The notes: generated by a model from the sequence alone, not told the origin. A stretch of 64,000 nt of DNA from Gloeobacter morelensis MG652769 (GCF_021018745.1 NZ_CP063845.1:1984001-2048000), one strand, 5' to 3'; shown: positions 15,591 through 25,419, counted from the first letter of the stretch. Program-made: numbers and translations.

Positions 15591-15673
15591 ATACTATTTG
15601 TCAACCCTCATCCTTTTGGCCGTATGTCTTCCGAGGCTTGTTTAAAAATGATGCGCAGCCCCACCATAACCGC

Positions 15674-19954: not shown

Positions 19955-20026
19955 GCCGATGTGGCGCAGTGGTAGCGCATTCGATTCGTAATCGAACGGT
20001 CGCGAGTTCGAATCTCGCCATCGGCT
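19955..20026 (+). tRNA. tRNA-Thr (anticodon CGT)
   Basis: 72-nt cloverleaf. Acceptor stem GCCGATG (19955-19961) pairs with CATCGGC (20019-20025), discriminator T at 20026. Anticodon stem TTCGA/TCGAA with loop TTCGTAA; anticodon CGT at 19987-19989. T-arm GCGAG-TTCGAAT-CTCGC. CCA is not encoded. Its 3' half is duplicated 3200 bp downstream. Confidence 0.95.
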
Positions 20027-20027
20027 T
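19980..20027 (+). repeat. 48-bp direct repeat, tRNA-side copy (attL-like)
   Basis: From the anticodon stem to one base past the tRNA end, identical to 23180-23227. Duplication of a tRNA 3' part is the usual footprint of site-specific integration by a tyrosine recombinase. Confidence 0.85.
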
Positions 20028-20202
20028 AGGTAAGTAGACGCATCCCGCAGCCAGGTGCAGGTCTTGCTATTGCGTGTGCCGGATCCCAAATGGCGAAACA
20101 TCGAGAGTGCCTTGCGTGGGCTCGAGAAACCCTCCGGGCCTATCGAGCCTCCCGCCGAGGAGCCTCCTATGCACACCGACTAAACAGGAGCAATTGGTCC
20201 AG

Positions 20203-20871
20203 ATGGACAGCATCCAAACATTTCGCCAATTCCTGACGGGGCGCAAGGTCGAGGCGGTCCGGATCGAACAGGCGTGTCTGGCTGACGAGGACGGTTTTGT
20301 CCGCGAGTGTTCCGCGGGTCCCACGCTTTACGAAGGTTCGGACTTCGCTATCGACCTGCTTTTCCTCCTGCTCGAAGAGCACCGAGCCGAAGTGGTGCGG
20401 CTGTGGGAACTCGACCCCGCTCCGGTTCTGGCGAGCGGTTTGGTCGGGCTGATGCCGCTGGTTCCGTTGATGGCTGGACAGGACCTGGAGTTGCTTCTGG
20501 AGCGGTCCACCGAGGTCATTCAGGCGGAGGTACAATCGGCTGAAGAGCGCAACGAAGTCCTAGCCGTCACCGGTCTGCTCGCATCGCTCAAGGACGAGCG
20601 GGTCGTCGAGCAGTTCTTCCGCACGAGGTCGATCATGAGCCTATTGTCAGAAACCCCACTCTTTCAGGCCCTCACCCAGGAACGCGTTCAAGAAGCCATC
20701 CGGCAGAGCAAGCTTCAGAGTCTGCTCGCCCTGCTGGAGCACAAATTCGGCCCACTGCCGGACGACTTGCGCGAAGCACTTCTGGCCATCGAGGTCGCCG
20801 AAGAACTCGACGGGTTGCTCCTGGCCGCCGCCGACGCTCGCGATCTGCAAGGTGTCCGCAACCGCCTCTGA
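20203..20871 (+). CDS. DUF4351-type protein lacking the Rpn nuclease core
   Basis: 222 aa from the ATG at 20203 (AGGAG 12 bases upstream). Residues from about 65 align with the full gene at 20961: WELDPAPVLASGLVGLMPLV versus WQLDPQPLLAASQVGLLPLV, then AVTGLLASLKDERVVEQFF, and the DUF4351 tail LLALLEHKFGPLPDDLREAL. The N-terminal ~60 residues do not contain the D-x(n)-ExQ nuclease motif of Rpn/PD-(D/E)XK proteins. This may be a truncated paralogue or a natural partner form. Rpn proteins are recombination-promoting nucleases often found near mobile DNA. Confidence 0.55.
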   Translation: MDSIQTFRQFLTGRKVEAVRIEQACLADEDGFVRECSAGPTLYEGSDFAIDLLFLLLEEHRAEVVRLWELDPAPVLASGLVGLMPLVPLMAGQDLELLLERSTEVIQAEVQSAEERNEVLAVTGLLASLKDERVVEQFFRTRSIMSLLSETPLFQALTQERVQEAIRQSKLQSLLALLEHKFGPLPDDLREALLAIEVAEELDGLLLAAADARDLQGVRNRL

Positions 20872-20960
20872 TCCACTTCCGGATACAAAATGAGTCGCAG
20901 AGTAGAGTTGGCTGCTTGCTGGTTTGTCGGGATGAAGCAGTATCGCGAGCGACTTCTTTA

Positions 20961-21911
20961 GTGGCCGAAAAAGAACGTCGCCCGTTTGATACTGGCCTGC
21001 GCGGTCTGGCTGCACGCTACAGCCGCGACTTCCTCGCCTGGTTGCAAGGCACACAAGCGGTCTTCGAGCAAAACCTCGATCCTGTGATCATTGCCCAGGA
21101 ACGCCGCGCCGACTTCCTGGTACGCTTTCGCAACGAGCAAGGACAAACCCGGCTGCTCCATGCCGAATTCCAGCGTCAGGTCACAGAAGCTGGACCGCCC
21201 GGCGAGCGGCTGCCCTTTCGCATGGCGGAGTACGGGCTGGCCGTCTACCGTCGCTATGGGCAGGTGCCGCAGCAGGTGCTGGTGCTGCTGCAGCCTGCCG
21301 CCGCCGCCGAACGCCTCCCCGACACCTTCGAGGACGGCGGTATCCGTGCGCGCTTTCGGATCCTCCGCCTCTGGCAACTCGACCCGCAACCGCTGCTGGC
21401 CGCTTCCCAGGTCGGCTTGCTGCCTCTGGTGCCCCTGATGGGCGGCACGTCGGTGGAGGAGTTGCTAAGCGCCTGTGTAGAAGCGATCGATCGACGGGTA
21501 GAATCGACTCAGCAGCGCGCGGAATTGTTGAGTGTCGCCCTGCTGCTGGCCTCGATCCGTGCGGATCGCGCCTTCCTCACCGCTTTTATGGAGAGTCGGG
21601 CCATGTTCGATTTGCTGCGGGACACGCCCCTCGGGCAACAACTGCTCCAGGAATCCGAACTGCGCGGCGAACTGCGCGGCGAACTGCGCGGCGAACAACG
21701 GGGCGAACAACGGGGCGAACAACGGGGCCGTGTGGAAGGGCTTCGCCAGGCTCTGGTGCGCCAATTGACGCACCGCTTTGGAAACCTGCCGGATGCACTG
21801 CTCGCTGCACTGCAAGGCGTCACCGACCCCGAGCGCCTCGAACAGTTGCTCGATGCGGTTATCGATGCGTCGGATATCGATGCCTTCTGCTCTCGAGCAC
21901 AGCTTCCCTGA
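20961..21911 (+). CDS. Rpn-like PD-(D/E)XK nuclease family protein with DUF4351 tail
   Basis: 316 aa from GTG 20961; a TTG at 20916 would add 15 residues. The N-terminal nuclease core has an Asp in RRADFLVRF (D51) and ExQ in LLHAEFQRQ (E69, Q71), the catalytic pattern of the Rpn/transposase_31-type PD-(D/E)XK family. The middle is helical; residues around 233-256 are six copies of a GELR/GEQR tetrapeptide encoded by a 12-bp tandem repeat. The C-terminus is a DUF4351 helical tail (THRFGNLPDALLAALQGV). Probably a DNA endonuclease; activity untested. Lies inside the tRNA-bounded island beside two degraded relatives. Confidence 0.65.
   Translation: MAEKERRPFDTGLRGLAARYSRDFLAWLQGTQAVFEQNLDPVIIAQERRADFLVRFRNEQGQTRLLHAEFQRQVTEAGPPGERLPFRMAEYGLAVYRRYGQVPQQVLVLLQPAAAAERLPDTFEDGGIRARFRILRLWQLDPQPLLAASQVGLLPLVPLMGGTSVEELLSACVEAIDRRVESTQQRAELLSVALLLASIRADRAFLTAFMESRAMFDLLRDTPLGQQLLQESELRGELRGELRGEQRGEQRGEQRGRVEGLRQALVRQLTHRFGNLPDALLAALQGVTDPERLEQLLDAVIDASDIDAFCSRAQLP
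21657..21728 (+). repeat. In-frame 12-bp tandem repeat, six copies
   Basis: Three copies of GAACTGCGCGGC followed by three of GAACAACGGGGC, encoding alternating GELR and GEQR units. The array is a multiple of three and keeps the frame, so copy number could vary without breaking the gene. Confidence 0.9.
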
Positions 21912-21954
21912 GCTATCCAGCATAGTCAGTCGTGTCGAAAGCAAGTTTTAGCCG

Positions 21955-22107
21955 TTGCAGCGCCGGTTGGAGCACGAGTTTGGGCCACTGCCGGAAGACC
22001 TGCTGACGGCCCTTCAGTCGGCTGCCGACGTAAATAAGCTGGATCGCCTGGGCTTGAACGTGCTCGATGCCCCAGACCCCGATACTTTCCGACGACAGAT
22101 ACCACAC
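21955..22107 (+). pseudogene. DUF4351 C-terminal fragment
   Basis: The frame LQRRLEHEFGPLPEDLLTAL and the following VNKLDRLGLNVLDAPDPDTF match the DUF4351 tails of the two preceding genes (compare LEHKFGPLPDDL). A TAG stop lies just upstream and no nuclease part is present, so it is a decayed third copy. Confidence 0.65.
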
Positions 22108-22244
22108 GCACAGAACGACCGCGGTCTCTGGCCTACACCAGAAACGGCGATTGGAAAGGCATCCGGGCTAGGCGGAAGGATTTCGTACTCTCATTTTTTA
22201 TATCGTTACAATCGGTTTGAAATGGATATGCAGCCCCGCCTTTC

Positions 22245-23060
22245 ATGAAACGCCGTAGTTCCAGCTTTGAAGGGAAACGGCTCCTCAAGTACGAGCCCGA
22301 AACTCTAAGACAGGACGCTCTACTCGCCGGGGCTGATCCGGATTCGGTGATCAAGGTCTATGAATTCCGAGAAGACCAAAAAGTCTATGCGGCGGGGTTG
22401 ATAGGCGCGCCACCGGCGGTAAGAGCTGTGCTCGCTCGCCACGAGGTTCGAGAAGCCGAATCCCTGCTTGCAGCTTTGCCGGATTCAAGCTCGGAGTTCC
22501 GTGCCCACAACCGCCAGGTGCGTCGGCGCATCCTCTTCCACTATTTGGCAGTAGGCCGGTTACTGAAGGCCCTCGATGAGCCGGAAGTTGGGCAACGTCT
22601 CGAACAAATTATCGAGCGAGCCGAAATTTTACTGCGTGCCCTTGAAGGTGAACGAATTTTTCACGTTCTTGGCGATCCAAGTGCAGTATTCACCGCAGCG
22701 AGCGTGCTGTTCGCCCTTGCCGCGTTCATATGGGCCGTACCCTTCCCACCCGGTTTTAATTGGGGACTGGCTCAGCTGTGCATTTCTATATTCCCGCTAC
22801 TTGGAGGGATTCAACTGCTACGGAGCCTCTGGCTGGATTTGCCGCCCGCTCGCGGGAACAATGAAGAACTTAACGGCTTCATATTCGTTATGATATTTAC
22901 TATCATCACAATGAGTGCGGCCGTTGTTCTGCTTGCCGTATTTAAGCTGCTCCCTGACAGCTCCGCATTCGATATGACGGCAACCATCTTTGCCATCATC
23001 ATTGTTCTGTTTACTGTTCTGCTTACCGTGTTTAATTTGTTCCCCGAGCGGTTTAAGTGA
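22245..23060 (+). CDS. Unknown protein with C-terminal membrane segments
   Basis: 271 aa. A charged helical N-terminal half (about 1-145, for example RHEVREAESLLAALPDSSSE) is followed by four strongly hydrophobic helices: VFTAASVLFALAAFIWAV, LAQLCISIFPLLGGIQLL, GFIFVMIFTIITMSAAVVLL and ATIFAIIIVLFTVLLTVF. I do not recognise the family. It is the last gene of the tRNA-bounded island, and its base composition is more AT-rich than flanking genes, which fits acquisition from elsewhere. Confidence 0.6.
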   Translation: MKRRSSSFEGKRLLKYEPETLRQDALLAGADPDSVIKVYEFREDQKVYAAGLIGAPPAVRAVLARHEVREAESLLAALPDSSSEFRAHNRQVRRRILFHYLAVGRLLKALDEPEVGQRLEQIIERAEILLRALEGERIFHVLGDPSAVFTAASVLFALAAFIWAVPFPPGFNWGLAQLCISIFPLLGGIQLLRSLWLDLPPARGNNEELNGFIFVMIFTIITMSAAVVLLAVFKLLPDSSAFDMTATIFAIIIVLFTVLLTVFNLFPERFK

Positions 23061-23179
23061 TCTCTCCTCGGCCGCTCTTAACCCTATGAGCTTGCACATT
23101 CTTCGGGTATTGTTTGGGTATCCCATAGAATTATTCTCACTGGAAACCTTGCTGTCGAAGAACTTCATGTTTTTCTTCT

Positions 23180-23227
23180 TTCGATTCGTAATCGAACGGT
23201 CGCGAGTTCGAATCTCGCCATCGGCTT
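23180..23227 (+). repeat. 48-bp direct repeat, distal copy (attR-like tRNA-Thr 3' fragment)
   Basis: Identical to 19980-20027. Sequence before 23180 is not tRNA-like, so this is a 3' tRNA remnant and not a second tRNA gene. It sits in a 418-bp stretch (23061-23478) otherwise holding only the small doubtful frame at 23275. Confidence 0.85.
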
Positions 23228-23274
23228 GTACACAGGTGCAGCTATGACTACCGGCAACGACAGCCGCTGCACTG

Positions 23275-23418
23275 ATGCTGCCGTCGACCGACTGTCCGGC
23301 CGACGACGTTAACGAGCAAGTAGCCGAACTGGATGCCGCCGTCGTACGCCGAGAAATCGATCGCGGCGGGCAGTGGCTAATGGCTGGGCAAAAGAGGGCT
23401 CGCCCCAAAGTAAAGTAA
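23275..23418 (+). CDS. Small doubtful ORF (47 aa) next to the island end
   Basis: ATG at 23275 to TAA at 23416-23418, encoding an acidic then basic peptide (VNEQVAELDAAVVRREIDRG, ending ARPKVK). No clear ribosome binding site. It has protein-like composition but could be the tail of a gene truncated by the integration. Not recognised. Confidence 0.25.
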   Translation: MLPSTDCPADDVNEQVAELDAAVVRREIDRGGQWLMAGQKRARPKVK

Positions 23419-23478
23419 AGCCAGTTGTAGTACAGTGCCGTGGCTACCCCACCTTGCAGAGATATATCATTGTCTTTT

Positions 23479-24093
23479 ATGCGCAAGCCCCAATCTGTAC
23501 GTAGTCTCGAAGACCTGGGTAGAGTCCGCCTATCGGACAATTTTTTCCTGCGCGACTTCCTTTACAGTGAAGTTGCCAACTTCTACGGCGTACCGAATAT
23601 TCCGGACGATCCGGAGCTTGCCATCGAGGCGGGCAGACAACTTTGCCGCCACCTGCTCGAACCGCTCTGTCAAGCGTTTGGCCGAGTTAGCATCCGCTCT
23701 GCCTTTCGCTCCGAGAGTGTCAACCGCTTATGCAATGAAAAAGGACACAGCTGCGCCCGTAACGAGGCAAATTTTGCGCGGCACATTTGGGATCACCGAG
23801 ACCAGAACGGACGGATAGGGGCGATGGCTTGCGTCGTGGTCCACTGGTATATCGAGCGCTACGAACAGACGGCAGACTTCAGGCCGCTGGCCTGGTGGAT
23901 TCATGATCACCTGGGCTACTCAGAACTCGTTTTTTTTCCCAAATACTGCGCCTTCAATATCGGCTGGCACGAAGCCCCGAAGCAAACCATAAAAAGTCAT
24001 ATTCAGGCCGCCAAGGGCTGCCTGACCCGACCTGGTATGGATAACCATGGGGGCGGTCACAGCATGTGGTACGCAGGCTTTCCAACCGTCTGA
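23479..24093 (+). CDS. Putative peptidase M15-like (DD-peptidase fold) protein
   Basis: 204 aa from the ATG at 23479; a GTG at 23440 is also possible. RVSIRSAFRSESVN resembles the SGYRSPxxN start of M15/DD-peptidase-fold domains. It is followed by NEANFARHIWD with a conserved His and Asp, GAMACVVVHWYIERYE, LAWWIHDHLGYSELVFFPK and FNIGWHEAPKQTIKSHI, which could give the last metal-binding His. Members of this fold cut peptidoglycan peptides. The assignment is by motif resemblance only; no signal peptide is visible. Confidence 0.5.
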   Translation: MRKPQSVRSLEDLGRVRLSDNFFLRDFLYSEVANFYGVPNIPDDPELAIEAGRQLCRHLLEPLCQAFGRVSIRSAFRSESVNRLCNEKGHSCARNEANFARHIWDHRDQNGRIGAMACVVVHWYIERYEQTADFRPLAWWIHDHLGYSELVFFPKYCAFNIGWHEAPKQTIKSHIQAAKGCLTRPGMDNHGGGHSMWYAGFPTV

Positions 24094-24145
24094 CCCGGGC
24101 CTGACCATCCTGGCGTCCGTCTCAGCAAGTCTTACGGCCTGAAAC

Positions 24146-24334
24146 CTACTTTCCTTTTCTTCTTGCAGCGGCTTTGATGGACCGCGCTTCAGCCACTGCA
24201 GCAGTCTCCTCAGTGGTAAGCAGGCGAATCGGTTCCTGTCTGTCACCCTGCAAATCGATAGCAGAGTTCTTGAGTGATTTGTCGGTTTTCAGTAAATTGG
24301 ATACATGCCTGAAATTTCCGGTTTTCACGCCCAC
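24146..24334 (-). CDS. Small hypothetical protein (62 aa)
   Basis: Frame ending in EETAAVAEARSIKAAARRKG K with a basic C-terminus and a mixed charged N-terminus. The start overlaps the first 30 bases of the divergent gene at 24305. Composition is plausible for a small antitoxin-like protein but no motif proves it; it could be a chance frame. Confidence 0.3.
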   Translation of the reverse strand: MGVKTGNFRHVSNLLKTDKSLKNSAIDLQGDRQEPIRLLTTEETAAVAEARSIKAAARRKGK

Positions 24335-24652
24335 GTCTACTACGACCCAGGCAGCCGGGAGGTAGCAGCACGCGTACGCAAAGCTCTAGAGGAGCGCTTT
24401 ACCGTGCAGCTCGGTCGCTGGCACGACGGGCCCATCGGTCCTCATCCCAAATCGATGTACCAGGTGGCCTTCTTGCCGGATCAGTTCGACGAAATCGTTC
24501 CCTGGCTGATGCTCCATCGCGAGGGGCTCGATATTCTGGTGCATCCCGAGACGGGAGATGACCTTGCCGACCATCGGCATCATGCCCTCTGGCTTGGTGA
24601 GAAACTGGCTCTCAATTTTGAATGTTTCCAGCGGGCTGAAACCACTCGCTAG
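24305..24652 (+). CDS. DOPA 4,5-dioxygenase-family protein
   Basis: 115 aa, the usual length. Family marks are the N-terminal GFHAHVYYDP with two His, RWHDGPIGPHPKSMYQVAF in the middle, and a C-terminal DILVHPETGDDLADHRHHAL, carrying conserved histidines expected to bind the metal. Plant and fungal relatives cleave DOPA rings in betalain synthesis; bacterial substrates are mostly unknown. Confidence 0.82.
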   Translation: MPEISGFHAHVYYDPGSREVAARVRKALEERFTVQLGRWHDGPIGPHPKSMYQVAFLPDQFDEIVPWLMLHREGLDILVHPETGDDLADHRHHALWLGEKLALNFECFQRAETTR

Positions 24653-24761
24653 GCAGACATCAAAGATTCGATTCATACTCTCACAAGACTTTTGGCAGCG
24701 TTGGTCGCCCACTCCCAGTCTTCACGTGTTTGCGTGCTACACTTGTTTGCGTGGAGGCCCT

Positions 24762-25007
24762 ATGGAAACCCAGAACATTACGCTAGCCCTGCCAAAAAGT
24801 GTCTTACGCAAAGTCAAGCTCATTGCTGTCCAGCGCAATACATCGGTTTCCCAACTGTTGACCGAGGTGCTCGAAAAGCTGGTTCAGCAGGAGGACAGGT
24901 ACACCCAGGCTCGTCGTCGCCATCTCCAACTGCTTGAGCAGGGCCTGGATCTCGGTACTTGCGGGCAGAACCCCGCGTCGCGCGACGCCCTCCATGAGCG
25001 GCACTAA
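24762..25007 (+). CDS. vapB: VapB-type antitoxin (ribbon-helix-helix)
   Basis: 81 aa behind GGAGG six bases before the ATG. N-terminal QNITLALPKSVLRKVKLIAV then NTSVSQLLTEVLEKLV is a ribbon-helix-helix DNA-binding and dimerisation motif; the rest is a flexible tail that would bind the toxin. Overlaps the PIN toxin gene by 14 bp, the classic toxin-antitoxin layout, with antitoxin first. Confidence 0.82.
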   Translation: METQNITLALPKSVLRKVKLIAVQRNTSVSQLLTEVLEKLVQQEDRYTQARRRHLQLLEQGLDLGTCGQNPASRDALHERH

Positions 25008-25419
25008 GCAGCCACAGTTCGTCGATACCAATATCCTCATCTATGCCCACGACCGCTCGGCAGGTCAAAAGTACGAACGGGCCAGGGCATTGGTTGAGCA
25101 GCTATGGGACAACGGAAACGGCTGCTTGAGCATCCAGGTACTGCAGGAGTTCTACATCAACATGACCCGGAAAGTGACCCATCCCCTTGCACCACAGCCG
25201 ACGGCCAGAATCATTGCCGACTTGTCCAGTTGGTCTGTGCATCGCCCAGGAGTGGAGGATATTCTCCAGGCCATCGATCTGCAAGAACGCTTTGCGATTT
25301 CCTTCTGGGATGCCATGATCCTCGCTAGTGCGCAGCAGTTGCAGTGTGAAGTTCTATGGTCTGAGGATCTCAATACAGGGCAACTTTACGGGCAGACCCG
25401 TGTGTGCAATCCGTTTTGA
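24994..25419 (+). CDS. vapC: VapC-type PIN-domain toxin
   Basis: 141 aa. PIN-domain ribonuclease acidic residues are visible: PQFVDTNILIYAHD (first Asp), LSIQVLQEFY (Glu), AISFWDAMILASAQ (Asp) and VLWSEDLNTGQ. VapC toxins cut tRNA or rRNA and are held by the cognate antitoxin; VapBC also autorepresses. The start at 24994 is inside the antitoxin gene. No key residue is missing, so the toxin looks active. Confidence 0.87.
   Translation: MSGTKQPQFVDTNILIYAHDRSAGQKYERARALVEQLWDNGNGCLSIQVLQEFYINMTRKVTHPLAPQPTARIIADLSSWSVHRPGVEDILQAIDLQERFAISFWDAMILASAQQLQCEVLWSEDLNTGQLYGQTRVCNPF

Follow-up and report, generated by a model that had tools for sequence, protein, structure and literature searches.

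The tRNA-Thr(CGT) Locus

The window analyzed here is a stretch of 64,000 nt from the genome of Gloeobacter morelensis MG652769 (GCF_021018745.1, NZ_CP063845.1:1984001-2048000; genome size 5.1 Mb, designated G000), and it contains a small island bounded by a direct repeat of the 3' half of a tRNA-Thr(CGT) gene. The tRNA gene, the presumed integration target, is intact (19955-20026, plus strand; ARAGORN, Rfam tRNA score 74 bits). The left repeat copy, a putative attL core (19980-20027, plus strand), opens with the first base of the anticodon stem and stops 1-2 nt beyond the tRNA 3' end, and a repeat search placed the right copy, the putative attR, at 23180-23227 (plus strand), with an identity of 48/48 and a spacing of 3200. 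The tRNA 5' half is absent at the right copy. Exactly two copies of the 48-mer occur in the 5.1-Mb genome, allowing up to three mismatches, and the reversed 48-mer, used as a control pattern, had zero matches there. The inserted segment (20028-23179; 3,152 bp) has a G+C content of 58%, compared to 63-64% to the left, and carries four reading frames of note, none of which encodes a recombinase. A preliminary description of this DNA had claimed an exact 48-bp tRNA-Thr duplication around a segment without an integrase, and this was confirmed by ARAGORN, the repeat search, and searches with PF00589 and an integrase-family profile. The extent it gave, 19980-23227, is correct for the span that includes both repeat copies but not for the insert itself.

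A repeat that spans the anticodon stem to just beyond the tRNA 3' end is, to judge by its placement, the classical tyrosine-integrase pattern. Bacterial integrases use three regions of tRNA genes, and the anticodon stem-loop is among them: its stem, a palindrome, resembles the core sites of an attB of the phage lambda type, and its loop of seven bases resembles the overlap region (PMC8371274). Since the duplicated part extends to the end of the tRNA, the incoming DNA would restore the gene.

The Locus in Related Genomes

The tRNA-Thr(CGT) locus was compared in five genomes of the family (G001-G005), and the tRNA 3' half is present in a single copy in each. The closest complete relative, G001, lacks the island: its left flank matches the window up to the tRNA, and its right flank picks up again only at window position 25144, with all of 20028-25143 missing. 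Between these flanks are about 209 bp that include a reversed DUF4351 remnant, followed by a truncated VapC. In G002, a 100-contig genome, the right flank and a DOPA dioxygenase gene are joined to a fragment of tRNA-Leu(TAG), and the junction at tRNA-Thr(CGT) is either a rearrangement or an assembly join. The same order with both repeat copies was not seen in all relatives, and tRNA fragments were not found scattered at unrelated sites, two outcomes that the preliminary description had named as contradicting integration.

The DNA to the right of the repeat (23228-25143), likewise missing from G001, contains an endolysin-like 217-aa open reading frame (ORF), the DOPA dioxygenase gene and a VapBC pair. 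It is conceivable, if unlikely, that the island is only one unit of an accretion that includes this stretch, in which case the real insertion would be about 5.1 kb. The absence of the entire region 20028-25143 from G001 fits such a composite, as do the mobile appearance of the endolysin-like ORF (phrog_894, E 1.4e-6) and of VapBC, and a G+C content of 55.7%. On the other hand, there is no second decayed copy of the tRNA-Thr to the right of 23227, where the best score was 11 and shuffled sequences reached 12-13. In G002, too, the DOPA dioxygenase gene lies next to this right flank, so the stretch is in part older local DNA, and the truncated VapC kept in G001 points to a deletion in that genome.

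Noncoding DNA immediately upstream of tRNA-Thr(CGT) has diverged by about 19% from G001 and by 7.6% from G002, while the 48-bp right copy, which would be free to change, is unaltered. This suggests that the insertion is young and took place within the G000 lineage.

tRNA-Bounded Segments across the Genus

Second copies of tRNA 3' parts were sought with 134 tRNAs from three Gloeobacter genomes (nearly all of those in G000 and G001, and most in G003; G002 was not covered systematically). About 15 kb was fetched downstream of each tRNA, a reach that copies farther than ~15 kb away would escape. At a threshold of at least 36 bits on the same strand, 11 second copies were found, and the controls gave none, either on the opposite strand (best score 25.4) or with reversed tRNAs (best score 29.7). 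All 11 start at the anticodon stem, between tRNA positions 25 and 32.

This series bears on the very improbable reading that no integration took place at all, and that the repeat reflects a tRNA fragment duplicated by chance or as part of a segment, or a rearrangement driven by an insertion sequence (IS). The genus is rich in rearrangements (PMC13237429), and a fragment that resembles an IS transposase by eye lies beside tRNA-Thr in G002. However, all 11 copies share the same orientation toward the tRNA 3' end, the controls are at zero, and the common anticodon-stem boundary disfavors random duplication.

Besides the window island, with its second copy at 23180-23227, G000 has a 3.5-kb island at tRNA-Thr(GGT) (L080, 10441-14072) that carries genes for a GmrSD-N/DUF262 protein, a TnpB-like protein and an IS transposase, and no integrase. 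Its right copy corresponds to the 3' half of the tRNA in G001, and the DNA that follows to the downstream flank there, from which the right copy is taken to be the displaced original and G001 the empty state. The 5' half of the intact tRNA also differs from that of G001, which simple insertion at the anticodon does not explain. The segments of G001 are a 5.5-kb island at tRNA-Cys(GCA) (L189, 373-5900), with a 914-aa TPR protein, AbiEi/AbiEii and no integrase, and two short ones at tRNA-Ser(TGA) (0.5 kb) and tRNA-Ser(GCT) (0.8 kb). The TPR protein has an N-terminal region that looks ATPase-like by eye, and the toxin gene of the AbiEi/AbiEii pair appears split.

The remaining six segments belong to G003. 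The largest, an 11.2-kb element at tRNA-Ser(GCT) (L118, 6354-17685), is bounded by an exact 65-66-nt repeat and encodes an integrase, a 909-aa ATPase-like protein, and helix-turn-helix (HTH) and coiled-coil proteins; it has the appearance of a satellite or a small integrative element. Two segments lie in tandem at tRNA-Ser(TGA), with second copies at 5.1 and 7.0 kb, and the second of these units has pieces of an IS-like transposase (by eye), DUF433 and DUF5615. Others are found at tRNA-Leu(TAA) (10.5 kb) and tRNA-Arg(TCT) (2.2 kb). At tRNA-Thr(CGT), a decayed 3'-half scar bounds an island of ~1.95 kb (L013, 9720-11780) with a PemK/MazF toxin gene, Uma2 and no integrase. Variable cargo at the same tRNA, as anticipated in the preliminary description, is therefore found in this genome.

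A small coiled-coil gene, with a product ending like LQTENQRILDILQ, recurs just downstream of tRNA-Ser, tRNA-Val and tRNA-Arg loci in three genomes (L202, 391-1514; L113, 458-1072; L108, 406-808; L150, 1958-2383; L147). The Ser(GCT) and Ser(TGA) loci of G003 additionally have an HTH-like gene and another frame in common. None of the genes that recur across other tRNA loci is present in the window island.

Integrases

PF00589 gave no match near the window, and all its matches in G000 lie elsewhere in the genome. Three of them have counterparts in the relatives with similar scores and look like Xer-type core genes. The fourth, some 3 kb from tRNA-Gly(TCC), is a short frame. In the G003 Ser(GCT) element, the integrase gene is located directly inside the tRNA-side repeat. 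It belongs to a divergent tyrosine-integrase family for which all six sites in G003 are directly downstream of tRNA or tmRNA genes, with full-length genes at Ser(GCT), Gly(TCC) and the tmRNA (L208, L211, L212) and remnants at Lys(CTT), Ser(TGA) and Leu(TAG). The Pfam model misses two of the three full-length, tRNA-linked integrases; because Pfam alone would understate the number of integrases, a profile of the family was searched as well, and it detected no member in G000, G001 or G002. Among named genome contigs it found a single relative, in a metagenome-assembled genome of the Gloeobacterales, and it had no match in phages. Across the 11 repeat-bounded segments there is one intact integrase and one remnant; the other nine have neither.

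These counts are relevant to a narrower version of the origin preferred below, possible but less favored, in which the island is a non-autonomous element that never had an integrase of its own and was moved in trans by that of a satellite, phage or plasmid that resided in the same cell and used this tRNA site as well. There is no trace of an integrase even though the exactness of the repeat implies that the insertion is young, and the nine segments without an intact gene or a remnant of the genus family include some of 0.5-5.5 kb with toxin-antitoxin (TA) or defense-type cargo. The inner right ends of the tRNA-Thr(CGT) islands of G000 and G003 are weakly alike (p 0.005 for this one pair, uncorrected for 55 pairs), which would fit a common attP. 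Against this, a helper integrase was not detected in G000-G002, the integrase remnants of G003 at Ser(TGA), Lys(CTT) and Leu(TAG) show that decay does happen, and searching the island ends revealed no clear arm-type repeats. A broader proposal, which we consider improbable at present, would make such elements a Gloeobacter class of their own: minimal, integrase-less, 0.5 to ~5 kb long, with TA or defense-type cargo, inserted at the anticodon stem of many different tRNAs and dependent on a sporadically present, Pfam-divergent tyrosine integrase in trans.

Origin of the Island

The tRNA-directed integration put forward in the preliminary description is supported by the repeat geometry, the single copies in five relatives, the absence of the island from G001, the variable cargo and the series across the genus, whose controls were empty. 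The island is probably a remnant resembling a cis-mobilizable element (CIME), left by integration of the tyrosine-integrase type; the integrase would have been deleted once the segment was in place, or provided by a helper no longer present. The recombination mechanism, the direction of insertion and functional att sites are what we infer. According to this scheme, a 3.15-kb segment would have recombined site-specifically into tRNA-Thr(CGT) at its anticodon stem-loop, so that at the left end the tRNA was made whole by the 3' half of the element and the right end kept the original 3' half of the host. Loss of the integrase or of its helper would have left attL and attR around a cargo of a nuclease gene of the Rpn toxin-antitoxin type, two Rpn relics that would stem from tandem duplication with deletion, and the gene of an orphan membrane protein.

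Several observations weigh against this CIME-like origin. The lack of recognizable arm-type repeats, mentioned above, is one. The comparison of the locus in relatives, proposed in the preliminary description as a check, gave the expected single copies and the absence from G001 but no exact empty site: G001 also lacks 23228-25143 and has the short DUF4351 remnant, and in G002 the tRNA-Thr(CGT) is joined to DNA that is located at 1.36 Mb in G000. Gene conversion with the tRNA could have preserved the identity of the right copy, and with it the appearance of youth. Lastly, simple decay does not easily account for a young insertion whose integrase is wholly missing and whose Rpn copies are already eroded, and a young insertion without an integrase trace leaves room for mobilization in trans.

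Integration of the P22 type, in thrW, also targets a tRNA-Thr(CGT), with an att core that begins in the anticodon region and reaches the 3' end; P22 is a phage with its own integrase, whereas the window island is without phage structural genes. CIMEs are defined by the retention of attL and attR in the absence of integration and transfer genes (PMC5704250). The island keeps both ends without such genes, but at 3.15 kb it is small, and there is no adjacent integrative element to mobilize it in cis. No remnants of integration or transfer genes that would point to an ancestral integrative and conjugative element or integrative and mobilizable element were found in it. At the ssrA locus of Dehalococcoides, islands lie between direct repeats derived from the 3' end of a tRNA-like gene, and 15 of these islands have no integration module (PMC3146451). 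Those islands form tandem arrays at one site and involve a serine recombinase and a T-loop crossover, whereas the Gloeobacter islands occupy many tRNAs, are mostly single and begin at the anticodon stem. Closer to hand, the Ser(GCT) element of G003 is from the same genus and has an exact 3'-half repeat starting at the anticodon stem, but its integrase, 909-aa ATPase-like, HTH and coiled-coil genes are all absent from the window island. A phage satellite (phage-inducible chromosomal island or P4 type) was considered and rejected, as the integrase, replication and regulatory genes of such elements were not found in the island.

Islands of this kind are already known, and the newer point is the genus-wide set of integrase-poor tRNA islands. 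They are frequent and small, and since most lack an integrase, searches that start from integrases miss the majority. The window island also shows an rpn gene on a carrier that can be delimited, whereas the horizontal movement reported for this family has no defined ends (PMC10327210) and rpn genes are reported to lack autonomous mobility. Were mobilization in trans correct, minimal elements of this type would be a vehicle for such genes.

Rpn Genes

The intact-looking Rpn/DUF4351 gene (20916-21911, plus strand; Pfam DUF4351) aligns over its full length with intact relatives from the family and keeps the D...ExQ residues, and by alignment it has a PD-(D/E)XK-type motif, RADF...HAEFQ. To judge from these homologues, its likely start is a GTG at 20961 (plus strand). 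Near the start of the C-terminal domain, the linker carries five to six RGEL/RGEQ four-residue repeats encoded by 12-bp units (21656-21727, plus strand; repeat search), a hypervariable hallmark of Rpn proteins (PMC10327210).

Rpn proteins are reported to be toxin-antitoxin systems that act against phage, in which the C-terminal domain blocks the full-length nuclease; this domain is sometimes a separate gene, annotated DUF4351, and the variable four-residue repeats begin 8-20 residues past an internal start (PMC10327210). An ATG at 21603 is a candidate internal start for an RpnS-like antitoxin (21603-21911, plus strand), since the repeats lie about 20 residues downstream, which fits the reported spacing; a clear ribosome-binding site is lacking there. 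The island gene shares with RpnL/RpnS (COG5464) the nuclease motif and the four-residue repeats before the C-terminal domain, as well as tandem and lone C-terminal copies (PMC10327210), but it is of the cyanobacterial DUF4351 type. An Rpn function is presumed from these features.

Two relics flank this gene. The first (20203-20871, plus strand) is Rpn-like from about residue 62; in alignment it lacks the catalytic D...ExQ stretch and has a shrunken N-terminus, and its first 60 residues had no match in plasmids. The second (~21940-22100, plus strand; repeat search and blast) is a C-terminal fragment only. Tandem duplication with deletion, as in other rpn arrays, would explain the three copies, and lone C-terminal copies could also act as antitoxins.

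The 271-aa Protein

The last gene of the island (22245-23060, plus strand) encodes a 271-aa orphan protein with a helical N-terminus and predicted membrane helices in its C-terminal half. No credible relatives were found in plasmids, phages, 59 related genomes, 386 genomes of the phylum, or genome and viral contigs. Two weak matches from the phylum, to an HD-domain-like protein and to a long, multi-pass membrane protein, were discarded. The single-sequence fold was poor (mean pLDDT 62.6) and gave no significant match in the PDB, and a faint resemblance of the N-terminus to an alarmone hydrolase (RelH; rank 39, E 1.7) was not accepted. Searches for a known effector family gave a best E of 0.046 in PADLOC and nothing in Pfam, NCBIfam or PHROGs, and a SLATT-like module of nuclease plus membrane effector is not supported by these results. 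The pairing of a nuclease-like protein with a membrane effector as an antiphage module, suggested in the preliminary description, was left unsupported: a conserved association cannot be shown for a membrane protein without detectable relatives, and published work describes Rpn as a toxin-antitoxin system complete in itself (PMC10327210).

Neighboring Features

The endolysin-like 217-aa ORF to the right of the island (23440-24093), whose similarity is weak, has matches only in G004 and G005 among the relatives searched, and these are distant. To the left, the synteny of G001 and G002 with the window ends at 15661, and both genomes have an Xer-like recombinase gene close to the tRNA that is absent from the window. 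The tRNA-Leu(TAG) fragment that adjoins the DOPA dioxygenase gene in G002 is a 29-nt piece of the 3' end (L058, 8071-8099), and in G000 a DUF4351 fragment lies directly downstream of tRNA-Leu(TAG) (L114, 300-800).

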